DNA from: Warburgia ugandensis
Taxonomy: Eukaryota > Streptophyta > Magnoliopsida > Canellales > Canellaceae
Assembly: GCA_035236585.1 (NCBI GenBank)
Contig: CP141132.1
Coordinates: 41,419,880 to 41,483,879 of the forward strand
Direction: 5' to 3'
DNA length: 64,000 nucleotides
Made by a program: the position numbers and the translations under genes. Of the stretch, positions 26,507-64,000 are shown one piece after another; the stretch's first letter is position 1, and each line of letters opens with the position of its first letter. The notes under the pieces are model-generated. The model was given only the letters and a program-made list of their open reading frames with translations, was not told the origin of the DNA and searched no databases.

Positions 26507-26525
26507 TGGCGCCACTACCAGAGAA
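26507..26525 (+). other. Primer binding site of element E (Asp-tRNA type)
   Basis: TGGCGCCACTACCAGAGAA lies six bases after the LTR. It resembles the TGGCGCCGTTGCCGGGGA-type site of Athila elements, complementary to Asp-tRNA, with several decayed positions. Confidence 0.75.
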
Positions 26526-27735: not shown

Positions 27736-27739
27736 AACG

Positions 27740-36414: not shown

Positions 36415-37431
36415 TGTGACGACTTGGGTTTTTGTAACACATTTTGCAATACATTTTTTGGAGGTAGGGCCCTTAGTAATAAAAAAATTTCGCAAAACAA
36501 AGCAGCAAAAATTCTTTTCTTTAGAACTTGTTTTGAAAAACCTAAATCATCACTTCATACATAACATAAGTAGAATTTTTACACAAGTTAAAATTTCATT
36601 GAAGGAATATACTTTTATTAAATTTTAAAATCCACCCAGTGGTTCATAGTATAGCCTGAGTATTAGTACAATACTTGTCCAAATTATATAATCCAAATTT
36701 CAAAGCTCACCATACAATAAAAATTCTCAATAGAATACAATGCTCTCAAATAAAATACATGTCTTCAAAGGGATATACGCTGATTGATTATTCTTCCAAG
36801 TCTTCTTAAGTCTTGAGCTCCTAATTCTCCTTCTTTATATCTGAGATATTGTAAATATTAAAACATTTATAATATCTCAACAAGCAATGCCTAGTAGGGG
36901 ATTTAAGAAGCATAATAATTTGACAATATAATCCTAATACTTCATAATCCCATTATTCATACTCATGGATTAATCTCTTTACTTTGTCATATATGTACAT
37001 CCTTACACATACACACTGTATACTTTGTATAGATACGATTAAAACCATGAAAAATAGTTAATATCTCAAACATAATCATACCCAGCTTATACTAAGTTGA
37101 TAAATCATCTAGACTTTGTTGGAAATACTCCCTCCTTTGGACAGTATCAGTAATCCATGATTACCTGGCATCTCATCATGCAATATTATAAGGTATTTCA
37201 CTATACCATGCATCATAATGCAAAAATACTCAAAGAACTACTACGAATACAGTCCGAATCCATACCAGCATGCCCAAATAACTACCCAATAATCCACCTA
37301 TACCATCCTTGGCGGAAATCACAATATCCATGCCCGTATGGGAAGAACCATGGCTTTTCACAGTGGCGGCCTTCTCATAATTGCCCCACCTGACTTTTGG
37401 CCTCATTTAGGCTTGGTATCCATATAATAAC

Positions 37432-40055: not shown

Positions 40056-41520
40056 ATAAAATTTTTTGAAGAGTGAGTGGCTAAACCCTACTGACTCTCC
40101 TAGCATAGCAATCCCAGGACTACGGCTATTTAAAACAAAATCACAAGCCTCCAAGCTTGTATGTAAAGTAATTCTCATATGTATCAGACAATCTGTCTGT
40201 TTACTTAAGTCTGGAATATCATCTAATTCCATATTCACTTAGAGTATATTCCTCAATTCTGACTTAACCATTTTGTTGGATCATAAGGGTTTTAGGGGAT
40301 TTAATACAAGTATTAACATTACACTTGTCAACATTTCTATACATAAGATCATGTATTTAACATGTACATCCCATGTAGATGCATTCATAAAATCCTCCTC
40401 CCTTTAAGAAGTGATTTATCTCTTCAAATCTTCCACGATCCTAATTGACGTATGAAATTAGTAAATCCATACATACTATTAATATTTATACAATCTGAAT
40501 AATCCTATATTTTTTATCCTATCTATATTGTTTGTTTAATCTTGTCCTTTGATATAAAGGATATAGATCTATTATCCTATCATGATCTATCTCTCTCAAA
40601 TAATGTCTATCCTATTGATCAATAGATCTGATGGTTAGAATGATCGTCTAATCTTTCAGATCTAAGTATTTTCTATTCTAAGTCTTTGTGTATTCCTTTC
40701 TTTGATCTTGATCTTTCATAGATCCTTTGATTAACAATTTATACTTGTTAACAAAGGTCAAGGGCTTAGATATTCTATCATCTAGTTCTTCTTTAATCTA
40801 AGTTTAGTTGTTTGATCATCGTTAAGGAGGATGATCTTGGTTCTCTTCCTTCAATCATATTTGATCAAGGGTTTGGATTTTCTATCTAGATTTGTCTACA
40901 ACATATATACATACATACATAATAAAATAAGACATTAGGATTCTTATTGTTCTTGATCATTCAAGATCCTATGGATCTTGTTTGATTATCCTTATCTTAC
41001 TTACATTTTTTTATTAAGATTACATAATTTACTAACCTTTTATACTCTTATTATTATTATTCAACTAGTTATTGTTTTACTGATTGAAGATAATTTATTT
41101 CATCTTAAGTCTAAACTGCTCCTTTTATTTCCAATTGGGTAAGGCTTACTATCTGAATGGTTGAACACAACGTCAACGGAAGGTAAAGGAAGAGCAAGGC
41201 TCTATTAGAAAACCCCCTTAACCACCATGTTCAGCATTCACTAAAGTGACCTTAGCTTAACCTTTCATATGATTCCTATGAGCATTTTAACCCTAAGTAC
41301 TCTTTATAATTGATTTTAGTTAAATCCATGAACATTTAAAATGTCATTCATGGGGTTTATTATTCTCCTAGTTTGGGCCAAGGATTTTATAATCATTATA
41401 TTGTCCTACTAATTATAGCCCTTATTAATATTAAGTCAAAGTCATTCACTCATCTTAATTGTCCATGAATCTTTATGTTCCATTAGTTTGCATTTTTGGT
41501 GATTTATTCTCAATATATCT

Positions 41521-41700
41521 TAACAACTACTTAACATTTGAATCTACTAATAAAATTTGATAATAAATAAATCATAAACTTTAAAGCATAAATCCAATAT
41601 AAATTTAACAACTACCTACTTAACATTTGAATCTACTAATAAAATTTGACAATAAATAAATCATAAACTTTAAAGCATAAATCCAATATAAATTTAACAA
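41521..41700. repeat. Local tandem duplication, period 89 bp
   Basis: About 85 bp starting ACTTAACATTTGAATCTACT at 41529 recurs at 41618 with one visible change (TTTGATAAT versus TTTGACAAT). It lies in the family-B solo LTR. The near-identity shows it is recent. Confidence 0.88.
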
Positions 41701-44007
41701 CTATTTATACTAACATGCTTCCTATGAATGTAACTTATCCTAATGAAATAAAACTATACTTAAACTAGCATGATCCGAAGTTATGAAATACATGAAATTT
41801 ACTACTAATCAAATGAAATCACACCAAAATCTCAAATTTAAACTATCATGGCCCTAGGATAATTAAATCTACCAACCTATTAAAACAATCTAATAACATA
41901 TAGAGCATAGCATGTGAACATTTAAGAATTATACTATCATGCTTCCTAATTTATAACATAAATCACATTTCCAATTCTATTATCAAATAAAAGACAAGTA
42001 AACTAATTAGATTAGGATTATTAGAATATTTTACTTATGATCCAACCATTAGATCTTAGATCTTTTCCTTTTAATCAAGGGTTTTAATTACATATAGGGG
42101 TTTTGCTCCATTTAGATCCAAAGCTCATATCCACTTGTTTTTGTCACATTTAATCCATGATCTAACTGGATTTCATCATAATCCCATTCATACAACCCAT
42201 CCAAAGGGTCTAATCGTGCTTGGTCTTAGTGAGTCCCTTGGTATTTTTAGGGTTTTTCTACTATAAAGGGTAGATTCCTCATTTTATGTTAGATCTGTCA
42301 AAATAAATCATGGATATTACTTGATTTCAACATTATATCATCATTGCATTAGATCCCCCTCAGATCTTGAAGATCATGAAAATTAGAAACTTAATTCCTA
42401 AAAACCAAAAGTTTCTTGAATCATTTTGTCAATTTTACGATTTCAGAAGAAAATAAATGTTATAAGAATTCCATAGCCTCTTCCAGATCTTTATTTGGAG
42501 TTCAGATGACTCCAAAATTAAGGATTAAAGTTCACAGTCATTTCAAGGGTCCGGATTTGATCTATGCCTAGCAAAACAGACAGTTGTGTTTAGTCGAGTG
42601 GAGCGGGTCAGTCGAGCAGAGCGGTTGGCCCGCTCCCATCACCAAGATGCACGTCGTAACGCATTCCTAGGACTAGGGCTATCGCATGGTCATTCCGTCG
42701 AGACGGCATCACACACAGAGATGCTCCTGCAAGGCATGTTTTCGTGCGGCATCCTGCGATGGCGTCCCGAGATCCAATCTTTTTAGGAAGATCGGATAGT
42801 CCTTTTGGACCGTCTAATCAATTCCTTTTAATAAAAGGCTCAAAACTTGATTAAATTGCATGAAAATTCTAACCTAGGGGTTTTGGACCCTTCTGGATCA
42901 ATTGGACGGCTTAGATTTTCCATCTGAGTCCTCCGTCATCTAGAATTTAAGGGTTCTTATCCTTACTTGATTTTTATTTTATTTTTAACCTAAAACTAAT
43001 TTTAGAAAAAAAAATTATATAAATTAACATGAAATAAGTGTGGAAAGAATTTCCACCTACCTGGTTGGAGAAAAACATAAGTTTTGTAGCCTAATTTAAA
43101 AGAATATCCACTTGATGTTAAGATCGCCCAAGAACCGCTTGTCTTGTGAATTCCTATTGTTTGAACTATTGGATCTTCAAATTTCTTTTGTAGTTTTGTT
43201 GATAGAGTAGTCTGGGACAATCTGAATGGTAGGATTTGTGAGATTTGATTTGGAATAGAGTGCCTAATTGAATTTAGGTCTCTTGTTTCAATTAGAGAGA
43301 GAAAAAAGAAAATGAAAGAAAAGAGATTTTTCAGAGTTTTGGAAATTTGGGAATGAATCTAGATCTAATTTTGTAGGAGAAGCAAGAAAATTTTGTGCTA
43401 AATTTTATGAACATTTTTGGAGGATTTTTGGGGGTGTTTTTGTAGATGTTTTTGAATTTTTCATAATTACTTGTAATAATTATGTTTTAATTCTTTTGAA
43501 TATTAAATTAACATTGAATCCTCCACTACCACCTCCTTATCTGCTATCAGCTGGTAGTGGTTTGACCACTCATTACATGTTTTCTGGCCGTTGGATTCAT
43601 TTATGGTCCCCAAGAGGTGTGGAAGGACCATTTTGCCCTTTGTGGAGAAAAATCTATTTTATTCTCTCAAACTCAAAATTGACCATACTTAGTGGCGCTG
43701 GAATCGTATTTCTAACTACATTCTAAATATTAAAGTCTTAGATCTCGGTTATGGGTAAAATTACCATTTTACCCTTTTATTCATAAAAATGGAGAAAATT
43801 AGGGATTTTTCATTTTAACTTGGAATTGAACGTACTTAGTGTCATTTCGATCAGTTTTTCAAGCACATTCATAATTATAAGTTTTGAATCATGTTTTAAT
43901 CTCTATGAAAAGAGAATTCCCAATAACATAATATTGTAGCCTAGAATTTTTGAAAATTCAAACTAAATTGATTTTCTTAATCAATTTACAAAATTGGGGT
44001 TATTACA

Positions 44008-44012
44008 TACCA
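44008..44012 (+). repeat. Target site duplication, right (TACCA)
   Basis: An exact repeat of 36410-36414, at the junction of the family-B solo LTR and satellite block 6. Confidence 0.93.
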
Positions 44013-47000
44013 ATGCTTAAAATACTTACATTTTGTGTGAATGATCATTCAAGGACGTGAAAAGTTTAGCCATTGTGTTAGGGAACTTCCTAGGACTCAT
44101 TGCGATTTGGCTTTGTGTCTAGGGAGTTAAGACATCTAATGTTTTGGCATTGTTCCATGAGAGTTCCAGTGCTTAAAGTAATTAGATGTTGTACAAAGGA
44201 TCATTGAATGGCTTAAAAAATTTAGTCATTGTCTTTGCATTCTCCCATGACCTGAAGTGATTTGACTTTGAACCTAGGGATTTTCAAAGACATTAAATGT
44301 TTTGACATTGTGCATTGGGACTATCCAGCACTTACTGTTCTTAGACATTGTGCCAAGGAACAGACAATGGCTTGAAAAGTTTAGACTTTGTGTGGCAGAA
44401 CTTCTGTGGACTTCAAGTGACTTGATTTTGTGCCTAGATACTTCCAATGACATGTAATATTTTCACTTATGCTTTGAGACCTACTAGCACTTGAAGCGCT
44501 GGCACATTATTCCAAGAAAACATCCAACAACTCAAAAAGTATAGACATTGTGCTGGGGAGCTTCTTAGGACTAGAGGTGATTTGACTTTGTAGTTTGGGA
44601 CTTCCAAGGATATGTAATTTTTTGACATTTTGCTTTGGTAGTTCCAAGCACTAAATGTGCTTCGATATTGTGCTAAGAAACATCCAACTTCTTAAACTTT
44701 GAACCCTTACTATGCTCTGATGTTGTGCCAAGGATCATCCAAGGGCTTTTAAAGTTTAAACATTGCATTTGGAAACTTCCTAAGACTCAAAGTGATATGA
44801 ATTTGTGCCTAAAGACTTACAAGGACATGTATTGTTTTGGGATTGTGCCGTGGGACTTAGTAGCACTTAACGTGCTCAAAGATTTGTGTCTATGATCCTA
44901 CAGCTTGAGGACTTTAGACAATTTTGTTTTTTGTTTTTTTTGGCTACTCTTTGGGTTTGAAGTGATATAACTTTGGGCCTAGGGATTTTCAAATATATGT
45001 CATGTTTTGGCATTGTTCCTTGGGACTTATCAGTGCTTAAATTGCTTGCACTTTGTGCCAAAGATCGTCCAAGTGCTTGAAAAGTTCAGTCATTGTATTT
45101 GGGTACTTCTTAGGACTCGTGAATTGACTTTGTGTCTATGGAGTTCCAAGGGCATGCAATTTTTTGACATTGTTCCTTAGGAGTTTCTAGTGCTTAAAGC
45201 GATTGGTTTGTCCAAAGGATCATCCAACATCCTGAAAAGTTTAGACATTATCTTTGGGAATTTCCTAGGACTCAAAGTGATTTGACTTTGATCCTAGGGA
45301 TATCCAAGGATATTAACTATTTTGAGATTGTGCCTCAGGACTATCCATCTCTTAAAGTGTCTAGACATTGTGTCAAGTATTGTACAATGGCTTTAAAAGT
45401 TTAGACAATGTCTTTAGTAACTTCCAAGGACTCAAAGTGACTTGACTTTATGTCTTGGTACTTCTAATGACATGTAATATTATGACTTGTTCTTTCAGAA
45501 TTGCATGCAATTAAAGTGTTCATTTATTATTCTAGGAAATATCCTACATCTTGAAAAGTATAGACATGGTGTTCAGAAACTTTTCTGGACTCCAAGAGAT
45601 TGGACTTTATGGCTAGGGACGTCCAAAGCATTTAATACTTGGACATTGTGCTTTGGAACTTTCCATCACTAAACATGCTCTGATATTGTGCCAACAAACA
45701 TCCAACTACTTGAAAAGTTTATACAATGTGTTTGGGAACTTCTGCGGACTCTAATAGATTAGACTTTGAGCATAGGGATTTCAAAGGACATATAATGTAA
45801 TGACATTGTGTCTTGCAACTTACTAGTGCTTAAAGTGCTTGAACATTGTGCCAACAATCATCCCAAGGGCTTGACAAGTTTTTTTATTTTGTTTAGGAAC
45901 TTCCAAGGACTAATATTGATTTGACTTGGGAAATGTAGTGTACAGACATTATGCGTTGGGAGTTCCTAATGCTTAAAGTGATGGGGTGTTGTGCAAAGGA
46001 TCATTGAGTGGCTTGAAAAGTTTAGACATTGTGTTTGGGAATTTCACAAAACTCAAAGTGTTTTAAATTTGGTCTAGACAACAAAGATTTTAATTTTGTT
46101 CCTTGGGACTATCCAGCACTTAATGTGCTTGGACATTGAGCCAAGGATCTTAAACAATGTGTTCTCAAGCTTCCATGGACTCGAAGCGACTTGAATTTGT
46201 GCATAGGTGCTTCCCAGCACTGAATGTGCTCCAATATTGTGCCAACAATCATGCAACAGCTCAAAAAGTTTGGACAATGTGTTTGGGAACAACTCAAGAC
46301 TCCAAGTGATTTAACATTGAATCTAGGGATTTCCAAGGACATGTAATGTTTTGCATTGTAAGCTATGACTTACCATTGCTTAAAGTGCTTGAAAGTTGCC
46401 CCAAGGATCATTCAACAGCATGAGAAGTTTAGACATTGTTTTTGGGAATTTTCCAAGACTTGAAGTGATATGACTTTGTGCATAGGGATTTCCAAGGATA
46501 TGTAAGGCTTCATCACTATGACTTGGGACTTCCTAGTGCTTAATGTGACTAGGTACTTTCATGGACATGTGATGATATGACATTGTGTTTTGGCATTTTT
46601 GAGCACTTAAAGTTCTCAGACGTTGCACAAAGGATCATCCAGCGTTTGAAAAGTTTAGATAGTTTGTTTGCGAACTTCACAACATTTCAAGTGAATTGAC
46701 TTTGTGCTTATAGATATCCATTAACATTGTGCCTTAGGACTTCCCAGCACTTAAGCATGCTTGAGCATTGCACCAAGGATCATCCAAGAACACTAGAAGT
46801 TTAGACATTATTTTTGGAACTTCCTAGAACTCAAAGTGATATGACTTTGTGCATAGGGTTTTACAAGGATATATAAAGTTTTGACATTGTGCGTTGCGAC
46901 TTCCTAGCACTTAACATGCTTTAACATTTTGTCAATGATCAACCTAAGGCTTAAAAAGTTTAGACATTGTGTTTAGAAACTTCTTAAGACTCAAGGTGAT

Positions 47001-47934
47001 ATAAGTTTGTGCCTATGAATGTACAAGAACATGTACTGCTTTTTCATTTTGTGTGGGACTTTGTAGTGCTTAATACGCTCAGAGGAGTTTAGATATTATT
47101 TTTGGGTACATTCCAAGACTTGAATTGATATGACTTTGGGCCTAAGGAATTCCAAATATATGTAATGCTTTGACATTGTGCCTTGTCAATGCTTAAACTA
47201 CTTGGACTTTGTGTAAAGGATCTTTGAAGGGCTTGAAAAGTTTAGTCATTTTGTTTGGAAACTTCCCAAGATTCATTGTGATTTGACTTTGTGTCTATGG
47301 GGTTTCACAGACACATAATGTTTTGACATTGTTCCTTGTGAGTTCCTAATGCTTACAATGACTGGGTGTTGTGCAAAGGATTGTCTTTGGGAATTTCCTA
47401 GGACTCGATGTGATTTGACTTTGAGCCTAGGGATATCCAAGCACATTAAAAGTTTTAACATTGTTCCTTGGGACTATTTTGTGCTTAAAGTGCTTGGACA
47501 TTGTGCCACGGATTATGCAATGCCTTTAGAAGTTTAAACATTGTGTTTGGAAACTTCCATGGACTCGAAGTGACTTGATATTGTGTCTAGGTACTTCCAA
47601 TGTCAGGTAATATTTTATCTTGTGCTTTGGGACTTCCAAGAACTTAAAGTATGTGTATATTGTGCCTAGAAACATCCAACCACTTTAAAAGATTAGACAT
47701 TGTACTCGGGGAGACTTCCAATGGCATTTAATATTTTAACATTGTGGTTTAGAACTTCTTAGTAGCAAACATGCTCCTATATTGTGCCAAGAAACATCCA
47801 ACTACTTGAGAAATTTAGAATTGTGTTTGGCAACATCCCAAGACTCCAAGTTATTTGACTTTGAGTCTAAAGATTTCTAAGGGCATGTATTGTTTTGACA
47901 TTGTGCCTTGTGACTTATATAATGCTTAGGGTAA

Positions 47935-48455
47935 AGAACATCCAATGCAAAGCAACCTTTCATTCCCTTGTTTCATCATGGCACACTCCCCCTCCCCAAG
48001 CACACCTCAAGGAAGGGGGGACCAAAAAGGGCCTTTTGTTTTCCTCCCCAAGTGTGTTGTCATTAGATTTTGGGGCAATGTGAGCCAACATCAGCAAAAA
48101 GGAGCTTGGGCAAAGTCAAAGCTGTATTCCAAATCTATGTCAGAATTTTCCTAGCCTCCTTAAATTACCATTACATAATAAGGATTTGTTATGCATGATA
48201 TGCCAACAACTCACTACTGGGAAATGTGGGTGTTGTAGAGCTTCTCATGAAAATAGAAAAATGTATCACCCACTTCCTACAATCTTGCCTGAACCTTTGG
48301 GTAGGTTCTATGGGATCAATAGCCACAACAACCTAGTGTACGGTAGAATTCCCCAATACAGTCATTCGAAAAGTCCCTTCAAGGATAACTCCCATACAAT
48401 TCTTGTGAGAGCTAGAGATGCGTCTATGGGTAAAGCACGGTATCCATATAACTTG
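47935..48455 (+). other. Unassigned insert in satellite
   Basis: About 520 bp lacks the satellite phrases and begins and ends abruptly (after TATATAATGCTTAGG, before ACTTGGACATTGTGCC). It is more GC-rich than the array and contains C-runs near 47990. A frame of 116 aa at 48186-48536 (MLCMICQQLTTGKCGCC at its start) runs into satellite sequence at its end, so it is not an independent gene. The Cys pairs C3/C6 and C14/C16/C17 are not enough to name a domain. I recognise no transposon ends. It may be captured host or organelle DNA. Confidence 0.6.
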
Positions 48456-49479
48456 GACATTGTGCCAACAATCATCTCAAGGGCTTCAAAAGTATTATTC
48501 TTTTTCTTAGGATCTTCTCGAGACTTAGTGATTTGACTTTGTGTTTAAGGACTTCCAAAGAAATGTAATGTTTTGACTTTATGCCTTGGGAGTTCTTAGC
48601 ACTTAAATGATTAGGTGTTGTGCAAAATATCATCCAACGATTTGAAATGTATGGACAATGGTTTTCAAAATTTCCTAGGACTCAAGGTGATTTTGCTTTG
48701 AGCTTTGGGATTTTCAAGGACAATAAATGTTTTCATATTAGCCTTGAGACTATCTAGCACTTAATGTGCTTGGACAATGTGCCAAGGTTCAAACAATTGC
48801 TTAAAATGTTTAGATATTGTGTTTGCAAATTTCCACTAAATTGAAGTAACTAGACCAATGACATGTAATTTTATGACTTGTGCCATGGGACTTTTAGCAT
48901 TTAAAGTGCTCATACATTGTGCCATGAATGATCCAACAACTTGAAAAGTAGAGACATTGGCTCAAGAACTTCCACAAGTCAAAGTGATTTGACTTTGCCA
49001 ATAGGTACTTCTAAGGACAGGTAATGTTTTGACATTGTGCTTTGGGACTTCCAAGCAATTAAAGTGCTCAAACATTGTACCTTAAAATATCCAATGGCTT
49101 GAAAAGTTTAGACATTATGTTCAAAAACTACCCAGGACTTAAAGTGATTTGACTTTGGCCAAGGTACTTCCAAAGGAATGTAATACTTTGAAATTGTGCC
49201 TTGGGAATTTTGAGTATCTAACATTGTGCCAAGGACATTCCAACACCTAAAAAAGTATAGACATTGTATTTGAGAACTTTCCATGACTTGAAGTGATTGG
49301 ACTTTGTGCCTAAGGACTTCTAAGGACATGCAATGTTTTGACATTCATGCCTTGGGACTTCCCAACACTTAACATGCTTTGAGTTGTGCCAAGGATCATC
49401 TTACGGTTTGAATAGTTTAGACATTGTGTTTATGAACTTCCCAAGACTTAAAGTGATATGATTTTGTGCCTCAGGATTC

Positions 49480-49690
49480 CAAGACTTCTTGATAGCCTCA
49501 GGACCATAACTTTCTCCAATAGGTTGTCCACTCTAAGACACTTATGCTCCCCTAAATCAACAATCACATCAACTTTTGTTGCACCAGCGAGGGTCCATAA
49601 CCTCTACCTCATCCCCTATAGGGGGAGCTCAATGACCTCATCAGTCACATCACTCTGATGCACTATTACCTTGCCCATCCAACGGAGGTG
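49480..49690 (-). other. Unassigned insert in satellite
   Basis: About 210 bp of non-satellite sequence lies between GTGCCTCAGGATTCCAAGAC and GAATTTTACAAGACTTAGAG. On the minus strand one frame reads VKFHLRWMGKVIVHQSDV, then after one stop ATKVDVIVDLGEHKCLRVDN and LLEKVMVLRLSRS, which looks protein-like but matches no family I can name. The 66-aa + strand frame 49458-49658 starts in satellite and is less convincing. This is probably a fragment of a gene or transposon captured in the array. Confidence 0.5.
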
Positions 49691-50337
49691 GAATTTTACA
49701 AGACTTAGAGTGATTTGGCCTTGTACCTAGGGAGTTGTGGGGGCATGTAATACTTTTACACTGTGCCTTAGGACTTCTTAGGGCTTAATGTACTTGGTCA
49801 TTGTGCAGAGGAACATCAAATAGTTATAAATGTTTAGACATTATGTTTAGGAACTTCCCAGGAGTCATATTTTGATCTGACTTGGTGCGTAGGGACATCC
49901 AAGGATGTTAATGTTTTAAGATTACGATTTAGGACTTATTAGCACTTAATGTGCTTGAATATTGCACCAAGGATCATCCAATGGCTAGAAAAGTTTAGAC
50001 ATTGTGTTTGAGAATTTTCCATGACACGAAGTGATTTAACTTTGTGCCTAGGGAGTTGTGAGAGTATGAAATGATTTAACATTATGCATTGGGACTTCCT
50101 AGTGCTTAACGTGTTGGCCATTGGGAGAATGAACACTCAATAGTTTGAAAATTTTAGACATTGTGTTTAGGAACTTCCCAGGACTAGAAGTGATTCGACT
50201 TTGTGCCCTGGGATTCTAAGGACATATAACATTTTAACATATTACTTTAGGACTTCCTAGTGGTTGAAGTGTGTGGACATTGTGCCAAGGATCATTCAAC
50301 GGTTTGAAAAGATTGGATATTGTGTTTAAGAACTTTA

Positions 50338-50660
50338 GTAAGGAGACTGAATAAATAATGAAATTAAAAGTTTCAAAAAAAATCAGGCTACAATATGAGG
50401 GTTATTAAAAATGCACTTCTTCTATAAGTTGAATCAAGATATGAGACATGTATAATTGAAAACATCCTCAATGAACCCTTCAGAATGACAACCCTAACTT
50501 TGGTAAGGAGACTGAATAAATAATGAAATTGAAAATTTCAAGGAAAATCAGGCTGGAATATTGGGGTTATTAAAAATGCACTTCTTATAGAAGTTGAATT
50601 AAGATATAAGATATGTATAATTGAAAACATACTCAACGAACCCTTCAGAATGACTATAAG
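50338..50660 (+). repeat. Tandem duplication of LTR-B start, period 165 bp
   Basis: GTAAGGAGACTGAATAAATA occurs at 50338 and 50503. Both copies continue through TGTATAATTGAAAACAT to GAACCCTTCAGAATGAC with scattered differences, so the duplication is not brand new. Confidence 0.9.
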
Positions 50661-53600
50661 AATGACAAATCCTAAGTTTCAATGAAAAATCCTTATTTTT
50701 CTCCATTTTTAAGAATAAAAGGGTAAAGTGATAATTTTACAAATAACTGAGACCTAAGACATCAAAATTTGGAATGTACTCAGAAATACAAATCCAATGC
50801 CACTAAATACGCTTAATTCAAAGTCCGGGATAATAAAATGGATTTTTCTCCATAAAATAGCAAAATTGTCTTTTGATACCTCTGTGGGGCCCACAAAGGG
50901 ATCAAATTGCCAGAAAACATGTCATCATGAGTCAGACCACTACTAGCTACTAGTGGAGAAGGAGGTGGTAGTGGGAATCCAAAGACAATTTAATAATAAA
51001 AAGAAGTCAAACATGATAATTATAAGTAATCATGGAAAATTCCAAAACTCCCTACAAACGTGCGAGTTGCCAGATCTGACCCTGGTACACCCAAATTTGA
51101 TCTCAGCCGTTCAATTTTAATCTAGGATCTTATATATTCAATTAGGAGCTCAATATAGCATTGATTTTAGATCTGAAAGCTTCTGTAGATTCCTTATCAC
51201 TTGTTTAAGGTACTGAACTCATGAAATATATGTTTTAAATTGTATTTATTGGTTATAATCACAAAAATCCATAGTAATAGGATTGGATCATGATCAAGTT
51301 GATCTCAAAATTGAGATATGAACTGATGGATGGGTTTAGGAGGTCCCAAAACCTTACAAACCATGATAATGTAAAATTTCTGCATTTCTAGATCAAGAAA
51401 ATAAACAAAAACAGTAAGATAAAAATTTAGCCCTTAAAATAGGCTGAAATCTTAAAAACCCAATTATGATCTCAATTTAACTCCAAATTGAGATCGAAAA
51501 GATGGTTTGGATTCCTCTTGATGAGAAGAACCTATTGAACCAATAAAATCATAAGGTTAATTCATTAAATGTTCTAAATTTAAATAGATAAGTGTACTAA
51601 CATCCTTGATCTACAAAGATCTGGGATGATCAGACCATTCAAACCATGTTGGATGGTGATATAATAATATAATAACTTAAATAAATGGGTTAGATGTAAT
51701 GGAATTGGTAGATCTTAAGAGATTTAGCCTTAAAAGTAGTAAAAACCATAAAATTGAATGGTAATCTCCTTGATCAAGTTGATCAAGGATGATTGGATAG
51801 TATAGATGTGTTTAGATGAAGATATGAAGTTAATATCATATAGATTTATGTATTGGATGATGATGATTTGGGATAGATCAAGATCTATGCCCTTCTTTTG
51901 GATAAGAGGACTTAAGATCTTCTTGATCGGTTGGATCAAGGAGGATCAAATCACTTGATGAGATGCATCAATGATCTAATAATAAAATTACATTAAGAAG
52001 ATGTAATATATCTAAAGGAACATGAAAGATCAAGATCTAAACCCTAAACGAGATGAAAAATGAATAAGGATTAACTATGACCATTGGATCATGATGAATA
52101 GTTATGGCATGTTAAATTTTTATTTAAATTATTGGATGTTAGTATAATTTTCTTTTATTGCTTAGTATATATAATTGCAGATTTATTTATTTATACTTTT
52201 ATTTATTTATGCTTTAATGCTTATGTTATGAAAATTACATTGAAAATGTAATTAAATGAAAATAGAGTTGAAGAACAATTACATGGAACGAATGACATGA
52301 ACTTAATGATAGTCAGGGCCATAGTTAATAGGATAATATAAGGAATATGAATTCCTTAGCCCAAAATAGGAGAATAATGAAACTCCATGAATGACATTTT
52401 AAATGTTCATGGATTTAATTAAAATCAATTAGAAAGAGTACTTAGGGTTAAAATGATCGTAGGAACCTTATGAAGGGTTGACTTAAGGTCACCCTAATGG
52501 ATGATGAACATGGTGGTCAAGGGGGTTCTCCAATAGTGGCTCGCTCTTCCCCCACCTTCTATTGACCTTTGTGAGGTCTAAATGCCTCCTTACATGAGGA
52601 TTGAAGTAACCACTTTGTGTTGAACCATTCAACTAGTAAACCTTAGCCAATTTGACATAAGAGGAGCTGTCTAGACTTAGGATGAAATAAGCTATCCTCA
52701 ACCAATAAAACATTAACTGGTTAAGTAATAATAATAAGAGCATAAAAGGTTAGTAAATTACCTAATCTTAATAAAAATTGTAAATAAGATAAGGAAGATT
52801 AAATAAGATCTAAGAGACATCTTGAAAGATCACAAACAAAAAGAAAAGAAATATAATGTAGATTGTAGTGTTCTTCTATTATTTTAGTTATAGTGTAGAT
52901 TGTGAACTTAGAAGATTGGAAACCTTGATCATATATGATTCAAGAAAAGTTAGGGCATCCCTCATAGGATAACCCAAATACATGTAGAAAGAATACTTGT
53001 ATAGAAGAATAATTATATATATATATAGTTTGACAAATGTATGAATCAAGATCATGATGGACAATATGGAGTAAATACCACTTGAGATGTATGGATCAAG
53101 ACATGATACCACTTTGAGGTAGGTGGATGTATAAGAATGTATTAAGAATTCAGGTGTATACATACATGATCTTCTGTCTAAAATTATAGACCTTCATGAT
53201 ATAAGTATACTTGGTACCTTATCTTATTCATGATCCAATCATATGATCCAACTAATTTCTCCAAACCTATAATCCAATTCAACTTATCCAATCTAATGAT
53301 CTAATCCAATGAGGTGAAAGTAATGAGATATGTAGACTAAGGAAACCCTAAGAATAGGGCATAAAAAATATTGCAGCCTTAGTTAAATAGACAAATCGTC
53401 TAATATGTACAATGTATTTTATATACAAGCATAGTGTCTTATGATTTTTCTTTACATAGTACTAGGACTGGGGATGCTATGCTAGGGGAGTTATGAGGGT
53501 TTGGCCACTCACTTCCTAAAATTTATATGATGGATACCATGCCCAAAGAGAGGCTAAATGTCAGGTGGGGCAATCATGGGAAGGCCGCCACTATGACAGC

Positions 53601-54507
53601 CATGGTCCTCCCCATGCGGACATGGAGTTGTTATTTCCATAGTTAGTATCAGTGGATGATTATGTAGTTATCCAAGCATGCTGTATGGATTGAGACTGCA
53701 GCATAGTAGTCCTAACGTATTTTGCATTATGATGCACATATGATAGGCATAGTGAAATGCCATGGCATGATGAGATGCCGCTAAATGAGTTCATGGAAAG
53801 AAAATCTTCGTATGAGAATTGGCTGAATATTGATCTCCTAAGTGGAAGTATAGTGAGGGGAAGGAACAAGTTTTGAGCAATCTTCGCCATTTTAACTAAT
53901 TTATCCTATACTACATAAATAACGTACATACTGTATGTTGAGATAACTCATGAGTAGATAACCATAATGGAATAATGACTGAAGTATGTATTCTTATATT
54001 GGTGAAGTAGTATATTTTTGTATCCCCTACCAAGCATAGCTTGTTAAGATATTGTAAATATTTCAATGTTTACAATATCTTAGATAAAGAGAATGGAGAA
54101 TTAGGAGCTATAGACTCAAGAAGATTTGGAAGAATAAGCAATCAGAGTATATCCCTTGAAAACATGTATTTTTATTTTGAAGCATTGTATTGTATTGAGA
54201 GTTTTTAATGTATGGTGAGGTTTGAAATTTGGATTATGTAATTTGGACAAGAATTGTACTGATACTATCCTGTACTGTGAACCACTGGATGGATTCTAGA
54301 ATTTAATAAAATATATTCCTTCAATGGAATTTTATCTTGTACAAAAATTCTACTTATGTTATGTATGAAGTGATGACTTGGGTTTTTCAAAACAAGTTTT
54401 AAAGAAAAGAATTTTTGTTGTTTTGTTTTGCAAAATGTTTTTACTAAGGGCACCCAGCCTATGAAAAATGTATTACAAAATGTGTTACAAAAACCTAAGT
54501 CGTCACA
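50338..54507 (+). mobile_element. LTR of family B, rearranged left border
   Basis: About 4.17 kb, + orientation, ending CCTAAGTCGTCACA at 54507. It is collinear (inverted) with the solo LTR at 36415-44007: the counterpart of 41221-41300 is at about 52440-52530. There is no internal domain, so it is a solo or truncated LTR. The left end is unusual: the first 150 bp or so of the LTR is present twice (50338-50502 and 50503-50660), and the better LTR terminus, TGACAACCCTAACTTTG, starts at 50486 inside. About 20 bp of satellite is missing across the insertion and I see no target duplication, suggesting repair-associated rearrangement. Frames 51730-51939, 52888-53163 and 53660-53890 show no domain. 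Confidence 0.85.
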
Positions 54508-57500
54508 CTTGATTTTGTGCCTAGGTACTTCCAATGACATATAATGTTTTGAAAATATGTTTTAGGACATACCAGTAGTTGAAGTGGATGGATATTGTGT
54601 CAGGATAGTCCAATAGCTTGAAAAGATTAGGCATTGTTATTGGGAACATCGCAAGACTCATTGTGATTTGGTTGTGTCTAAGGCTTTGAAATACTTGTAA
54701 TGGTTTGACATTATACTTTGGGACTTACTAGCACATGAAATGCTCTCACATTGTGCCAAGGATCATTTTCAAAATTTTAGACATTGTGTTTGGGTATTTT
54801 CTAGGACTCGAAGTGACTTGACTTTGTACCTAGGTACTTCCATGGAAATGCAATGTTTTGACATTGTGCTTTGGCACTTCATAGTGCTTACAATGCTCAG
54901 GCATTGCACTAAGCAACATCCAATGGCTTGAAATATACATTGTGCTTAGAAACTTTCTAGGACTTGAAGAGACTTGACGTTGTGCCTAAGGATTTTAAAG
55001 AACGTGTAATATTTTGACGTTGTGCTCTGGGACTTCCCAGCTACTTAATATGCTCAGATATTGGCCAAGGATCATCTAATGGTTTGAAAATTTTAAACAA
55101 TGTCATTAGGAAGTTCTTGAGAGTTAAAGTGATATAACTTCGTTCCTAAAGGAGTTGTGAGGGCATGTAATGTTTTGACATTGTGCTTTGGGACTTCCCT
55201 GCACTTATAATGCTCAAAAATTATGCCATGGGAGAACCAATGGCTTGAAAAGTTTAACCATTTTTTTTTGGGAACTCCAAGGACTCGAAGTGATTTAACT
55301 CCATGCCTAGTGACATTCACGAATATGTAGTATTTTGAAATGTGCTTTAGGACTTCCTAACACATAAGCTTCACTAATGTTGTGCCAAGAAACACCCAAC
55401 AGCAAGAAAAGTGTACACAATGTGTTTGGGAACTTCCCAAGACTTGAAGTGACTTGGTTTTGTGTGCCTAAATACTTTAAAGGATATGTGAAGTTTTGAC
55501 ATTGTGCTTTGTCACTAGCGCTTGAAGTGCCTATACATTATTTCATGGATCAATCAATAGCTAGAAAAGTTTTGACAATGTTTTTGGAGACTTCATAGGA
55601 CATAGTGATGTGACTTTGTGTCTAAGGACAAATAATGTTTTGACATTGTGCTTTGAGATTTACCATCACTTAAAGTGCTTGGACATTGTGCCAAGGATCA
55701 CCAAATGACATGAAATATTTAGAAATTGTGTTTGGGAACATCCCATCACTCAAATTGACTTGATTTTGTGACTAGGGATTTCTAGGGACATGTTATATCA
55801 TGACATTATGCTTTGGGACTTCCTAGCACTTATAATTCATAGACATTGTGCCAAGGAACATCCCTAGCTTGAAAGTTTAGACATCATGTTTAGGAACTTC
55901 CCAAGACTTGAAGTGATTTGAAATGCATGCAAAGGTACATCCAATGATATATAAATTTTTCACATCTTGCTTTAGAACTTCTCAATGCTTAATTAGCTCA
56001 GAATTGCACCGAGGATCATACAACAGCTTAAAAAGTTTAGAAATTGTGTTTGGAAATTCCCTAAGACTTGAAGTGATTTAACTTTGTGACTGTGGATTGT
56101 GAGGACATGTAATGTTTTAATATAGTGCCTTGGGACTTTCTAATGCTTAACATGCTCAGCCATTGTGCCAAGGAACATCCAATAGTATGAAAAGTTTATA
56201 TATTATGCTTGGGAATTTCCCAGGACTCAAATTGATTAAACTTTTTGCCCAAGGACTTCTAAGGTCATGTAATGTTTAGAAATTGTGCAATGGAACATCA
56301 CCAAAGCTTAAAGTACTTGAACATTGTTCCAAGGATTGTCCAATGGCTTAAAATGTTTATACATTGAGTTTGGAAAGTTCCACAGACTTAGAGTGATTTG
56401 ACTTTGTGCCTAGAGCGTTGTGAGGGCATACAAAGTTTTAACATTTTGACTTGGAACTTCCTAACACTTAACATGCTTGGTCATTGTGCTAGGGAACATC
56501 CAATGGTTTCAAATGTTTAGGCATTGTGTTTGGGAACCTCTGAGGGGATGAAATAATCTAACTTTGTGCCTAGGGAGATCTAAGGACAATAACTATATAA
56601 TATTGTGATTTGGTACGTCCGAGCACTTAATGAGCCTAGAATTGCAGCAAGGATCACGAAAAGGGTGAAAATGTTTAAACATTGTGTTTAGGACATTCCT
56701 AAGACTCAAAGTGATTCAACTTCATGCATAGGGAGTTGTGAGGGTATGAAATACATAAATGTTGTGCCTTGGGCTTTCTCAGTGCTTAACATGCTCGGGC
56801 ATTGTGCCAATGAGCACCAAAAAGTTTGAAAATTTTAGACATTGTGTTTGGGAACTTCCAACGACTGAAAGTGATTCAACTTTGTTCTTAAGGACTTCTA
56901 AGGACATATAATATTTTTATATTTTGCTTTAGGACTTCGTAGTAGGTGAAATGGGCAAACATTGTACCATGGATCATTCAACAATTCAAAAAGATTAGAC
57001 ATTGCATTTGGGAACTTCCCAGGACTCGAAGTGACCTGATTTTGAGCCTAATTACTTTCACTAACATATATTATTTTAACAATATGTTTGGGACTTAGAA
57101 GTGGTTGTAGTGCTTGAATGTTGTGCTAGGATCTCCCAATGGCTTGAAAAGATTGGACATTGTTTTTGGGAACAACGAAGGACTCATAGTGATTCGATTC
57201 TATGTCTAGGGATTTGAAACACCTGTAATGGTTTGACATTATGCTTTGGGACTTACCAGCAGATGAAGTTCTCCCACATTATGTCGAAGATCATATTCAA
57301 AAGTTTAGACATTGTATTTGGTATTTCCTAGGACTCAAAGTGACTTGATTTTTTCTTAGGTACTTCCATGTAAATGTAATGTTTTGACATTGTGCTTTGA
57401 GACTTTATAGTTCATATAGTGCTTAGACATGGAACCAAGGAACATCCAACAACTTGAAATGTACATTGTGTTCAGAAACATCATAGGACTCAAAGTGACT

Positions 57501-59042
57501 TGACTTTGTGCCTAGGACTTCAAAGCACATGTAATATTTTGACATAGTGCTTTGAGAGCTCCCAACTAGTTAATATGCTTGGACATTGTGCCAAGGATCA
57601 TCCAATGATTTGAAAATTTTAAACAATGTCTTTGGGAAGTTCCTAAGACTCGAAGTGATTTGACTTCATGCCCAAGGAGTTGTGAGGGCATGCAATGTTT
57701 TGTCATTGTTCTTTGGAACTTCCCTATGCTTATTATGCTCAACATTGTGCCATGGGACATCCAATAGTTTGAATAGTATATATGTTGTTTTTGGAAACCT
57801 CCAAGGGCTCAAAGTGATTTGACTTTGTGCCTAGGGACATCCATGGACATGTAATATTTGACATGTACTTCAGAACTTCCTACCACATAATATTCTTCAA
57901 CATTGTGCTAAGGAACACCCAACTACTTGAAAAGTGCAAATAATGTGTTTGGGAACTTCCCAAAACATGAAGTGGATTGAATTGTGTGCCTAGGTACTTC
58001 AAAGGACGTGATGTTTTGACATTGTGCTTTGGGACCAATGGCTAGAAAAGTTTAGACATTGCTTTTGGGGAATTTGAAGGACTCATAGTGATATGATTTG
58101 TGCCAAGGACATTAAATGTTTTGACATTGTGCTTCGTGGCTTCCCACCGCTTAAAGTTATTAGAAATTGTGCCAACAAATACCCAATGACTTTAAATATT
58201 TAGGCATGGTGTTTGGGAATATCCTAGCACTCAATGTGATTTGACTTTGTTCCTAAGGACTTCCAAGGACATGTTATGTCTTGACATTATGCTGTGGGAC
58301 TTCCTTGCTTTATAGTTCTTAGACATTGTGCCATAAATCGTCCTCAGTTTGCAAGTTTAGAAATTGTGTATAGGAGCTTCCCAAGACTCGAAGTAATTTG
58401 AAATTTGTGCCAAGGTACATCCAAGGATATGTTTTCTTTTGACATTTTTCTTTGTAACTTCTTAGAGCTTAATGACCTTAGACCTTGCTCCAAGGATCAT
58501 CTAACTAGTTGAAAAGTTTAGAAGTTGTGTTTGGGAATTTCCCAATACTTGAAGTGATTTGATTTTGTGACTACAGAGTTGTGAGGGCATGTAATGTTTT
58601 AATATAGTTCCTTGTGACTTGTAAGTGCTTAAGGTGCTCAGCCATTGTACTAAGGAACATCCAATAGATTGAAAAGTTCAGATATTGTGTATGAAAACTT
58701 CCTAAGACTCAAAGTGATTAGACTTTGTGCTTAGGTTTGGATGTTGTGCAATGGGACGTCCCTAGAGCTTAAAGTACTAGGAAATTGTTCCAAGGATTAT
58801 CCAATGGCTTGAAAAGTTTAGATATTGTGTTCAGTATGTTCGAACTACTCAGAGTGATTTGACTTTGTGTGTAGGGAGTTCTGAGGGCATGTAATGTTTT
58901 AAAATTTTGCCTTGGGACTTCGTAGTGCTTAACATGCTTGGTCATTGTGCGAAGGAACATCCAATGGCTTCAAACATTTAGACATTGTGTTTTGGAGCCT
59001 CCCATGAGTCAAAGTGATCTAACTTTGTGCATAGGGACATTC
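54508..59042 (+). repeat. Satellite block 7 with 2.5-kb higher-order repeat
   Basis: About 4.5 kb of satellite between two family-B insertions. Shared rare variants show a higher-order period of about 2.46-2.53 kb. A GAGTTGTGAGGGCATG-like phrase at 55152, 56095, 56415 and 56733 has counterparts at 57677, 58576, 58876 and (upstream, with the 4170-bp insertion at 50338-54507 removed) 49732 and 50053. A second marker, TGGTTTGACATTAT at 54701 and 57229, gives 2528 bp. At 160 bp per monomer this is 15-16 monomers per unit. The + and - strand frames here are artefacts. Confidence 0.92.
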
Positions 59043-59902
59043 TATAATGACTTGGGTTTTTGTAACATGTTTTGTAATACATTTTTGAAAGGCAGGGCCC
59101 TTAATAGTAAAAAACTTTCACAAAACAAAGCAACGAAAATTCTTTTCTTTAGAACTTGTTTTGTAAAACCCAAGTCATCACTTCATTCATAACATAAGTA
59201 GAATTTTGTACAAGATAAAATTCCACTGAAGGAATATACTTTTTTTAAATTCTAGAATCCATCTAGTGGTTCACAGTACAGCCAAATCCATTACAATACT
59301 TGTCCAAATTACATAATCCAAAACTCAAAGCTCACCATACAATGAAACTCTCATTACAATACAATACTCTCAAACAAAGCAAAATACATGTCTTTAAGGG
59401 GTATACCTTGAAGATTATTCTCTTCAAGTTTTCTATCATCTTGAGCTCCTAACTCTCCTTCCTTATATCTTAGATATTGTAAACATTGCAACATATGGAC
59501 CCCACATAGTGTAAAAAGACCATTTTTTCCCTTTATGTGTAAAAATTAGGGTTTATTCCCATGATCTCAGAATTGAGCGTACTTAGTGGCGTTGGATTTG
59601 TATTTCTCAGCACATTCTAAATTTTAATGTCTAAGATCTCGATTATGGATAAAATTACTATTTTACCCTTTTGTCTATAAAATAAAGAAAATTAATGATT
59701 TTTCATCCGAATTTAGAATTTGTCATGCTTACAGTCATTTTGAAGGGTTCACTGAGTTTAATTTCAATTATACATGTCTTCTCCCTTGATTATACTTCTA
59801 TAAGAAGTACATTCTAAATAACCCTAATATTCTAGCTTGAAATTTTTGAAACTCAAACTTTATTGATTTTCTCAATCAATTACAAAAATTGGGATTATTA
59901 CA
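59043..59902 (-). repeat. 3' LTR of element B, internally deleted
   Basis: On the minus strand it begins TGTAATAATCCCAATTTTTG at 59902 and ends CCCAAGTCATTATA at 59043 (a decayed CGTCACA). The left part (59043 to about 59490) matches 36415 to about 36870 and the right part (about 59490-59902) matches about 43590-44007. The 4.1 kb in between in the solo LTR is missing here, with the junction near 59490 (ACATTGCAACATA followed by TGGACCCCACA). The element thus carries an 0.86-kb LTR while its relatives carry about 5 kb. Confidence 0.88.
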
Positions 59903-59919
59903 ATCTTCCCCCCTTACAA
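59903..59919 (-). other. Polypurine tract of element B
   Basis: The minus strand reads TTGTAAGGGGGGAAGAT immediately before the 3' LTR and follows TTTTGAGGACAAAATTA, the same arrangement as in element A (20190-20213). It marks 59902 as the LTR start. Confidence 0.85.
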
Positions 59920-59951
59920 TAATTTTGTCCTCAAAATTTGTAATACAATAC

Positions 59952-61251
59952 TTAATCAAACAAACTAGGGTGTGGCTTCCTCATTTCTACTTCTATTTCC
60001 CACGTGGCTTCCTCAACAAAGTGATGTTGCCATAGGACTTTGACTAACAGAATGAGTTTGGTCCTTAACTTCTGTTCTTTGCGGGTCCAAAATTTGTATT
60101 GCCTTCTCTTTGAATTTTAGGTCTGGCTTTAGCTCTTCTGACACCCTTTGAACTACATGTGTGCCATCTTGGAGGTATTTCCTTAGCATAGACACATGAA
60201 AGACACTATGTATTTCTAAGAGTTGGGGTGGTAAGGCTAATTTGTAGGCCACTGAACCAACTCTTTCTAAGATTTCAAATGGACCGATGAATCTAGCACT
60301 AAGTTTTCCCTTGCTTCCAAACCTCATTACTCCTTTGACAAGTGATACTTTTTGAAATACGTGCTCCCCCACATCAAAGTCCAGGTTTCTACGTCTTTTA
60401 TATACGTAACTCTTCTGTTGACTATGTGTTGTTAACAACCTCTTCTGTATCAATCTAACCTTGTCTATACACTGTTCCACTAGTTCTGACTTTATCAGCT
60501 TTCTCTCTCCAACTTCACTCCAACAGGTTGGTGATCGACATGGCTGTCCATACAATGCTTCATATGGTGCCATACCAATACTTGCTTGAAAACCGTTGTT
60601 ATATGCAAATTCTACTAACGGAAGATGTTCATCCCAACTCCCTTTCCAATCTAATGCACATGCTCTCAACATATCTTCTAAGGTTTGAATAGTCCTTTCT
60701 AATTGACCATATGTTTGGGGGTGAAATATTGTACTGAACTTAAGTGAGATTCCCAAGGCTTGTTGTACACTCTTCCAACATCTTGAAGTAAATCTTCCAT
60801 CCGTATCGAAGATAATGGATAGTGGAATCCTATGAAGACTTACTATTTCTTTGATGTATAACTTAGCTAGACTGTGAGCTGATTGGTTCTGCCTAATGGG
60901 TAGGAAATGTACTCACCTTGTTAGCCTATCCACAACCACCCAAATCATGTCATGGCCTACTTGGGTCCTCGGCAATCCTACTACAAAATCCATAGTGATA
61001 TTGTCCCATTTCCATTATGGAAGTTCCAATGTTTGTAACATTCCAGCTGGTCTTTGGTGTTCAGCTTTTACTTGTTGACAATTTAGACATTTAGCCACAA
61101 ATTCTCCTATTTCTCTTTCCATGCCTTCCCACCTAAAGTTTCTTTTTAAATCTTGATACATCTTTGTACCCCTAGGGTGTATAGAAAATTTTGACTGATG
61201 GGCTTCATGTATCAGTTCCTTTCTCAAGTATGTATTTAAAGGAACCACCAA
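59952..61251 (-). pseudogene. Chromovirus-type integrase, broken
   Basis: Integrase joins the element's cDNA to the chromosome. On the minus strand 61251-61015 encodes the zinc-binding part (HEAHQSKFSIHP...CLNCQQVKAEHQRP). A TAA at 61015-61017 follows, then the catalytic core: [16 protein letters not shown] (first Asp), a TGA at 60913-60915 within VDRLTR/VHFLP, FDTDGRFTSRCWKSVQQALG (second Asp) and FHPQTYGQLERTIQ (Glu). The open frame 60756-60013 continues through the C-terminal domain (KLALPPQLLEIHSVFHVSML). A one-base shift near 60050 puts the conserved ending FVEEATWEIEVEMRKPHP in another frame, with its stop at 59952-59954. The DDE residues are still encoded, but Asp is replaced by Tyr in HPQTYGQ. 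A chromodomain proper is not evident. Confidence 0.92.
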
Positions 61252-61661
61252 TCTCTCTTGAAAACGTATACCCCATCTATACCCTTAATAACTCCTTTCT
61301 TTTTACACAATTCCTGAGTTATTGTATCTTCTTCTTGGGCTTTAAGGACTCTTTCTACAAAAACTGATTTAATTATGATGTTTGTAAGTAAAGCTCTTGG
61401 CTGTCTACTTAATGCATCAAATCCTACATTTGCTTTTCCAGGAAGGTATTGGATGGCAAAATCGTAGTCTTTGATATACTCTATCCATCTTCTTTGTCTC
61501 ATGTTCAAATCAGCCTGAGTGAAGATGTATTTAAGACCTTTATGATCTGTGAATACATTGAATTTTTCTCCATACAAATAATGTCTCCAAATTTTCAATG
61601 CAAAAACTACAGGTGTCAATTCTAGGTCATGTACTAGGTAATTTATTTCATGTTTCTTCAA
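61236..61661 (-). pseudogene. Ty3/gypsy RNase H (C-terminal part)
   Basis: It digests RNA of the RNA-DNA hybrid in reverse transcription. The frame reads [40 protein letters not shown] (with the catalytic Asp of TDHK) and [19 protein letters not shown], then [19 protein letters not shown] and DALSRQPR. The usual VADALSR is GFDALSR. A frameshift at about 61660 separates it from the preceding domain, and the end overlaps the integrase frame. It is part of one broken pol. Confidence 0.92.
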
Positions 61662-62803
61662 TTGTCTAGATGCATAAGCAATGACCTTCCATTTTGCATC
61701 AACACACCCTCTAACCCTTTTCCTGAAGGATCACAGTATATTTCATATCCTCCACTTCTAGATGGCAAAGTCAATACTGGTGTTGTAGTTAACCTCTTCT
61801 TTAGCTCTTGAAAACTATTTTCACATTCTTCTGTCCAAGTGAATTGTACCCCCTTTCTTGTCAAGGAAGTCAAAGGAAGAGCTATACAAGAAAATCCTTG
61901 AATGAATCTACGTTAGTATCTTACTAGTCTAAGAAAACTATGTATTTTTGTTACTGTTTTAAGTGTCTCCCCATTCATTACTGCTTGAATCTTGGTGAGG
62001 TCCACTTCTACTCCAATTTTGAAAATTACATGACCCAAGAAATTGACCTTCTCTAACCAGAATTCATACTTACTAAATTTACCAAATAGTTTACGTGTTC
62101 TGAGGGTATTTAGTACAATTTGTAAGTGTTCTTAATGTTCTTTGATACTGGTTGAGTAAATCAGTATATCATCAATAAATACAATCACAAATTTATCCAA
62201 AAATTCTTTGAAGATTATATTCATCAAATCCATAAACACTGCTGGTGCATTGGTCAGCCCGAAAGGTATGACTAGAAACTCGTAATGCCCATATCGAGTT
62301 CTGAATGCTGACTTGGGTATGTCTTCATCCTTAATATGCAATTGATGATATCCTAATCTAAGGTCAATTTTGGAAAAGACCTTAGCAGATTGGAGTTGAT
62401 CAAAGAGATCATCAATGCAAGGTAAGGGATACCTATTTTTCACTGTGACACTGTTCGACATTCTATAATCAATGCATAATCTCATAGACCTATCCTTCTT
62501 CTTCACAAATATTACTAGTGCTCCCCATGGTGAACTACTTGGTCTAACAAATCCTTTGTCTAACAATTCTTGCAATTGACCTTTCAACTCTGCTGGGACC
62601 ACCCTATAAGGTGCTTTAGAAATTGGAGTTGTACTAGGAATTACTTCAATGGTAAACTCGATTTTTTTGTGTGGGGGTAATCCTAGTAGCTCTTCAAGAA
62701 AAACATCTTGGAATTCCCTAATTACTTCAATTTCTGTTATCTTGGGCTGTTCAACATCTAAGGAAATCACTGTTGCTAGAAATGTTTGACACCCCTTGGA
62801 CAT
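61658..62803 (-). pseudogene. Chromovirus-type reverse transcriptase, broken
   Basis: The minus-strand frame 62803-62132 reads [94 protein letters not shown] and [16 protein letters not shown]. It ends with the active-site box FIDD (62168-62179) and [11 protein letters not shown] before a TAA. The same frame continues as EHLQIVLNTLRTRKL, FSKYEFWLEKVNFLGHVI and, after a further stop, RRFIQGFSCIALPLTSLTRK and the first RNase H part ([18 protein letters not shown], 61873-61658). It is a retroelement polymerase with the catalytic aspartates kept but at least two stops. Confidence 0.93.
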
Positions 62804-62927
62804 ATGTTTGACGCCTTCATAGTTGAGATAATGGATTGGTCTAAGTCATTGTGTTTCCCATACAATACTAATACTTCCTCACCCGGTTACTAAATGTGAT
62901 TTTCTTCTTGTGACAGTCCATAACTAC

Positions 62928-64000
62928 TCAGTATTTTGCTAACCATTCCATTCCCAGTATGATGTCAAAATCCACCATGTTCAATAAAATGAGGTCTATG
63001 TCCATTCTTTTTCCCAATACTTCTATAGGTAAATTATGTAAGTATTCTTGTAATCTAACTATTTTTCCAACTTGAGTTGTTACATCTAGATTAAATCCCA
63101 AGTTTTTCACTGACGATTGTATACTAGATGCAAATTCGCAAGATATAAAGGAATGCGTAGATCCAGAATCAAACAATACTTTGACATAGTTGTCCGCTAC
63201 AAGTTGTGTACCTTCAATCACCGCATTGGATGGTCTAGCTTGGCCATTAGTGATGGCGAAGACCCTTCCTTGGTGTTGAGGGGTAATTTCTCGTTTTGCC
63301 TCCTTGACTACCAATGGTTTGGTACAGTAGGTGGCGGCATGTCCGTACTCCCTACAATTATGGCACTTGATTGGAAACCATTGTGGTTGTTGTTGTATAG
63401 GTCTAGGGCAAATAATGCCTTGGTGAAATCTTCTGCATCTTGGACATGGTTGTCTATTTTGCCTTGGTGCATTGTTCCTCTGATTTCTTTGGGGCTTAAA
63501 ATTGTTCCAAGGTCTATTATTTATCTGGAAGGGCTTTGGGTTATTGTTTCCTCCTCCACTAAACTTGGCAGTTTGACTCTTTTTGTATTCTTCTTCAAAC
63601 TTGGAAGCCATTTCCACACATTCTGCCAAGGTAGTGGGTTTAGTACCCAGTACCTTTATTTTCAGCCCTGGGGGCAGCCCTTCAATGAATCGATTCATGG
63701 TGTGTGTTTTAGTGTTACACACATGAGTCACAAATCACCTTAATTGTGTGAACTTGTTATCATACTCTACCACCGATATATTCCCTTGTCTTAGATCCAA
63801 AAGCTCTATCAACTTTCTTTCTTGTACATGAGAAGGGAAATATTTGTGGTTAAATACTTCCTTAAATTCCTCCCATGTAGTATCTTTAGAATTTGGGATA
63901 TGTTGTTAGCTAATATCCACCAAAATGTAGCTTCTTGTTTTAATAAGTAGGTGAAAAATTTCACCTTCAACTCTAGAGGAGTATGGAGTGCACTGAAAGT
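62928..64000 (-). pseudogene. Chromovirus-type gag and protease, partial
   Basis: Gag packages the RNA; the protease cuts the polyprotein. Reading leftward from the window edge: KVKFFTYLLKQEATFWW, then (shifted by one) TWEEFKEVFNHKYFPSHVQE and LDLRQGNISVVEYDNKFTQL, a TGA at 63735-63737, then FIEGLPPGLKIKVLGTKPTT. Residues C123, C126, H131 and C136 of the frame beginning at 63731 form a CCHC knuckle (CHNCREYGHAATYC), preceded by a Cys/His motif (CPRCRRFH...C). The protease has VLFDSGSTHSFIS with its catalytic Asp at 63168-63170 and MVDFDIILGMEWLAKY near the end. The stop lies at 62928. The 208-aa frame on the opposite strand (63117-63743) is its shadow. Confidence 0.92.

Follow-up and report, generated by a model that had tools for sequence, protein, structure and literature searches.

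The question raised by this locus is whether the monomers of a plant satellite are arranged in a higher-order repeat (HOR), and if so, in what state that repeat is found and how it may have come about. The window, i.e. the whole stretch of 64,000 nucleotides (64 kb) analyzed from Warburgia ugandensis, carries a satellite of ~160-bp monomers, in which the original prediction placed a HOR of about 2.5 kb (15-16 monomers) in three successive copies.

The 160-bp satellite and its interruptions

A profile of the ~160-bp monomer gave 106 plus-strand matches in the 64-kb window, amounting to 14.2 kb of satellite; two weak minus-strand matches were left out. The matches are head-to-tail tandem monomers of one family, as in HOR satellites, and form plus-strand blocks at 3-851, 4780-5532, 12988-14303, 22865-24259, 35961-36414, 44005-47947, 48452-49481, 49690-50335, and 54473-59042. 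Mean identity over all monomer pairs of the window was 0.682, compared with 0.611 for shuffled monomers. These values come from a stricter identity measure that took over from a first one with too lenient gap costs, which was discarded after scoring shuffled monomers (0.748) above the real mean (0.738) of the same stretch. At four of the nine interruptions examined, the position in the monomer model resumes no more than 7 positions from where it stopped (106/101, 37/38, 33/28, and 35/28), and a fifth, at 14256, carries a 5-bp target duplication, so the blocks read as a single array broken up by insertions; in the remaining four cases the satellite join is inexact. Searching for words of the satellite in the full-text literature, a collection mostly outside subscription papers, gave no matches; likewise, no plant satellite in the literature surveyed could be matched to it. 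The core of the CENP-B box had no exact match on either strand of the whole window.

The monomer itself consists of four related, old subunits of ~40 bp. In 54508-59042 the raw autocorrelation has its highest peak at 40 bp (0.428), followed by 80 (0.399), 160 (0.381), and 120 bp (0.359), and the consensus matched itself at an offset of 40 bp with 0.541 vs. a maximum of 0.414 among 2000 shuffles. An aligned measure that had no shuffled control gave subunit likenesses of 0.384-0.426 at one to three steps, 0.653 at four steps, and 0.775 at 64 steps; because of the low likeness between subunits and the nature of this measure, it is the autocorrelation that carries the 40-bp tier. Together with the higher-order period described below, the tiers are 40, 160, and ~2,500 bp (16 x 160 bp).

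Among the insertions, an LTR element at 14256-22874 lies inside a satellite monomer and has LTRs of about 2.6 kb (K2P 0.065), while another at 24275-35946 has LTRs of about 2.1 kb (K2P 0.164) and a reverse transcriptase piece at 30795-31304. A 5-bp target duplication together with TG/CA ends was found in two of the nine insertions, TATTG at 14256 and TACCA at 36415. Within the latter insertion (36415-44004), the stretch 37753-40055 lies in inverted orientation and is related, at about 85%, to the LTRs at 14256 and 20220. The LTR-derived insertion at 50336-54509 splits one monomer of the higher-order unit: its flanks align to the paralogous monomer that is still intact at about 56909-57060, except that the left border lacks about 18 bp of satellite. 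It is related to 36415-36956 and 59043-59925, and no target duplication with TG/CA ends was found for it. A 165-bp tandem duplication (50331-50654, 89% matches) is seen at its left end. The array is ended by a Ty3/gypsy-type LTR element on the minus strand (59043-63734, continuing towards the window end), in which Pfam recognized domains of protease, reverse transcriptase, and RNase H and a Tf2-type SH3 domain, each in its own open piece, and whose LTR-like part at 59043-59925 has further related copies within the window. Among the best 120 of 7935 relatives of its reverse transcriptase above the threshold, the named hosts are flowering plants, bar one Picosynechococcus row; those listed include Tanacetum, Hevea, Prunus, Cucumis, Helianthus, Gossypium, Malus, and others, which makes a flowering-plant host very probable. 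Short tandem duplications are also present outside the satellite at 1983-2164 (99 bp) and 41527-41703 (89 bp), with 98% matches.

A higher-order period of 16 monomers

A period of 16 monomers (2.46-2.53 kb) runs through the satellite at 49689-50335 and 54508-59042, which confirms the predicted HOR of ~2.5 kb and narrows its "15-16 monomers" to 16. For the 30 monomers at 54473-59042 the mean identity was 0.796 at lag 16 (13 pairs; a fourteenth, in which a monomer is partial, was left out) vs. 0.683 at lag 1, and did not exceed 0.697 at the other lags from 2 to 28. Monomers 16 apart are thus far more alike than neighbours, which is the mark of a HOR; the outcome named in the original prediction as speaking against it, that monomers 2.5 kb apart are no more alike than adjacent ones, is not what the array displays (79.6% vs. 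68.3%). None of 5000 permutations of the monomer order reached the lag-16 value at lags 1-20, the best giving 0.736, and the lag-16 partner of the earlier pair member was its top match window-wide in 12 of 13 pairs and the second in the other. A measure from the multiple alignment gave 0.794 at lag 16 vs. 0.659-0.692 at the 24 other lags reported. A maximum-likelihood tree was built from those 94 of the 106 monomers that are at least 95 bp long; in it the lag-16 pairs are cherries (sisters) in 13 of 13 cases, with bootstrap values of 90-100 and SH-aLRT values of 79-99, and 16 of 74 doubleton variants are found at lag 16 where 2.4 are expected. By four separate tests the higher-order period is real. 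Lag 16 was also leading with the discarded lenient measure (0.818); a run-of-5 scan with that measure had a top value of 0.826 and did not clearly beat its null (95% point 0.822, maximum 0.835 of 200).

In the ungapped self dot-plot, which had been proposed with the prediction, there are 373 windows of 150 bp with at least 75% identity at offsets 2450-2540 and none at 150-170, so the 2.5-kb lines are indeed stronger than the 160-bp ones; weaker lines are seen at 300 (97 windows), 639 (56), 2143 (32), and 2782 (25). The distances between occurrences of a marker phrase, from which the period had been proposed, are arithmetically right. With at most 3 mismatches of 16, this phrase has 13 plus-strand matches in the window and none on the other strand; nine are in the two satellite stretches (49732, 50053, 55152, 56094, 56415, 56733, 57677, 58576, and 58876) and four elsewhere (14185, 45141, 47872, and 53488, the last inside the insertion). 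The further marker pair 54701/57229 (2528 apart) holds as well, with one base different of the 26 shown. Chain alignment at the monomer level joined 21 pairs with a score of 107, where 40 permutations gave a median of 16 and a maximum of 23.6. The monomers at 49021-49481, which take part in this 21-pair chain (0.76, 0.69, and 0.73), were not counted in the 16-monomer unit, since among 82 registers for that block the best one is elsewhere (45793, 0.723).

Of the predicted three successive copies two are near-complete, but the third is a weaker stub of four monomers. The first copy (54508-57033, ~2.5 kb, plus strand) was delimited by alignment to the second (57034-59042, plus strand), which has about 13 monomers, those of the 13 cherries, and is ended by the Ty3/gypsy-type element. 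The identity between 54508-56587 and 57034-59042 is 80.9% over 1999 aligned sites (K2P 0.223), and the later copy has gaps of 39 and 21 bp that explain most of the drift in offset from 2526 to 2461. The stub (49689-50335, plus strand), placed by alignment and register, comprises part of one monomer and four monomers at unit positions 13-16, and is 76.2% identical to 56371-57017 over 644 aligned sites (K2P 0.292). Among 58 registers this one ranks first with 0.755, followed by one of 0.737 (mean 0.692, sd 0.017). None of its four full-enough monomers has the partner at 56-57 kb as single top match, the best match of the monomer at 49747 being 58891; in the tree three of the four join the partner expected for them, in one case at an SH-aLRT of only 2, and the fourth does not. 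Over the 209 bp where the three copies overlap, shared-site counts of 14, 21, and 26 single out no closest two. The satellite belonging to the unit thus comes to about 647 + 4,535 bp in the window, i.e. about 5.18 kb or about 2.06 units of 2.51 kb.

Divergence of the copies and a second monomer order

Divergence is even along the 13 monomer pairs (chi2 9.7, df 12, P 0.64), as would be seen after a single block event that no patchy conversion followed. The copies of the unit differ by 19-24%, unlike those of homogenised arrays, and the very high copy identity by which a live HOR array is recognized is not seen. Adjacent monomers have a mean identity of 0.684 (82 pairs) vs. 0.675-0.679 between block groups and 0.682-0.687 for the other pairs within groups, and local homogenisation is no longer left among the monomers. 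High unit divergence (K2P 0.223-0.292) together with this loss of local homogenisation is characteristic of divergent HORs, as is an invasion by mobile elements after homogenisation stopped, which is likewise found here. The paralogous site in the next copy is free of the insertion at 50336-54509, and this insertion is therefore younger than the 16-monomer duplication. Both LTR pairs (K2P 0.065 and 0.164) have diverged less than the copies of the unit (0.223), a comparison that gives an ordering and not a date, as rates may differ between sequences. The observed/expected ratio of CpG is 0.20 in the 16-monomer repeat and 0.33 in the window, and of the 22 aligned dinucleotides that are CpG in at least one copy, one is CpG in both and 15 are paired with TG or CA, a depletion that would fit decay of methylated sites.

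A second order was seen in the same satellite at 44005-48855 (plus strand), where irregular a-b-c trios start at 44005, 45000, 45793, 47162, and 48452. These five occurrences have a spacing of 5-9 monomers and are independent of the 16-monomer unit; a-b occurs once more at 35961. The mean identity within a, b, and c was 0.760, 0.759, and 0.746, compared with 0.687 for random sets, and the shares of 20000 random sets reaching these values were 0, 0, and 0.035%, respectively. Since the "a" set had been chosen from the data themselves, the followers b and c constitute the test. The pattern fades beyond the trio, with a null fourth position (0.691, P 0.41) and a slight fifth (0.718, P 0.03). The monomers b (with 36066) and c come out as clades in the tree at 99/97, and a forms no clean clade (50/0). 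Chain alignment of the a-b-c stretch gave two chains (28.0 and 23.7) above the null maximum of 23.6, and three more in the same register (19.7, 16.8, and 13.0) under the null 95% point of 20.7. Partial block copies of other sizes are found nearby, e.g. 44005-44696/45025-45714 at 74.3%. Short non-satellite inserts are present in the array at 47948-48451, where 504 bp interrupt the a-b-c stretch, and at 49482-49689; the open frame at 48084-48536 had no Pfam match.

Origin and relatives of the repeat

Judged from the sequence, the unit is probably a relic ("divergent") HOR in an old plant satellite invaded by retrotransposons. The difference of 19-24% between copies is in line with a 16-monomer block that was duplicated in tandem long ago and is homogenised no more, and the same register is seen a third time in the stub, although the window has only about 2.06 units and the support for the stub is weaker. 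The presence of only about two units is also what a one-off tandem segmental duplication would leave in a decaying monomer-type satellite that was never within a larger HOR array, and both the evenness of divergence along the copies, such as a single event would leave, and the nearby block copies of other sizes agree with such an origin; the third partial copy in the same register, however, asks for two events with one period, and we regard a one-off duplication as rather unlikely. That the repeat could be the worn edge of a live, homogenised HOR array beyond the window has a parallel in human centromeres, where, in the accounts cited, divergent HOR layers flank active arrays (PMC9549924, PMC2729386), but nothing is homogenised in the 14.2 kb of satellite with its mean pair identity of 0.682, making this origin very improbable. 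Least credible of all is a chance likeness of AT-rich monomers or a false duplication by the assembler: with 3 mismatches or fewer, the marker phrase does occur at four places outside the region, but chance is excluded by the permutation, tree, and doubleton tests, and copies made by an assembler would be nearly identical and not 19% apart.

A relic HOR of this kind would have begun with a ~40-bp word built into a four-part 160-bp monomer, the monomers then drifting apart. Unequal exchange, we infer, or a similar replication-based event may have made a tandem copy of a block of 16 monomers that already differed from each other. This would have happened at least once, and probably a second time in the same register, before homogenisation ceased. 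The copies would since have diverged by ~20% through point mutation, in part through decay of presumably methylated CpG sites, would have lost short pieces, one of them subunit-sized, and would have been split by LTR retrotransposons. The repeat would presumably lie in heterochromatin and may have had some past role at a centromere. It is a doubtful but conceivable extension that it represents a fossil plant centromere akin to primate dead layers, in which 16-monomer and a-b-c orders would stand side by side on a 40-bp-based monomer, with ages readable from the nested LTR elements.

The view that HORs are less often described in plants is out of date. According to the survey results of Melters et al. 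2013 (PMC4053949), 76 of the 171 species for which Sanger data were available have clear HOR structure, which is described as widespread in plants and animals, and HORs are described in Populus (PMC12046899) and Brachypodium (PMC10910784). As far as these accounts go, HORs are widespread in plants and the present repeat is of an already known, fairly ordinary kind. The parallel that had been drawn to human alpha satellite holds for the higher-order period, but with 19-24% copy difference and about 2.06 units this is not a typical such array; copies in live human alpha satellite are given as differing by 1-2% (PMC9549924). Closest in state, as portrayed in the sources, are the divergent HORs or dead layers of human alpha satellite (PMC9549924, PMC2729386), which have in common with the Warburgia repeat a readable higher-order order, diverged copies, ceased homogenisation, and mobile-element insertions. 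The Warburgia repeat differs from them in coming from a plant, in its presumably unrelated monomer, in its 40-bp subunits, and in having no CENP-B box by the core pattern.

The centromeric HORs reported for switchgrass, Populus, and Brachypodium (PMC4053949, PMC12046899, PMC10910784) likewise consist of head-to-tail monomers of ~155-175 bp in higher-order units, and the switchgrass units resemble the Warburgia repeat in including truncated monomers. As described there, these HORs are called from closely similar monomers, whereas the Warburgia copies differ by about 20%. Strict settings may miss relics, the Populus HORs being called by the HOR program with maxdiv 5 according to the stated parameters (PMC12046899). 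Old, diverged HORs record how satellite arrays once expanded, and should such relics be common in plants, much of what now passes for monomeric satellite may be decayed HOR, and the primate-derived model of centromere expansion could be tested in plants. Closest in build is the CficCl-61-40 family of Chenopodium with its ~40-bp basic word in longer units, outlined in PMC6429384 as a 117-bp monomer of three 39-bp subrepeats with units up to 332 bp; compared by build, the Warburgia repeat has four subunits giving 160 bp and a further tier of 16 monomers.
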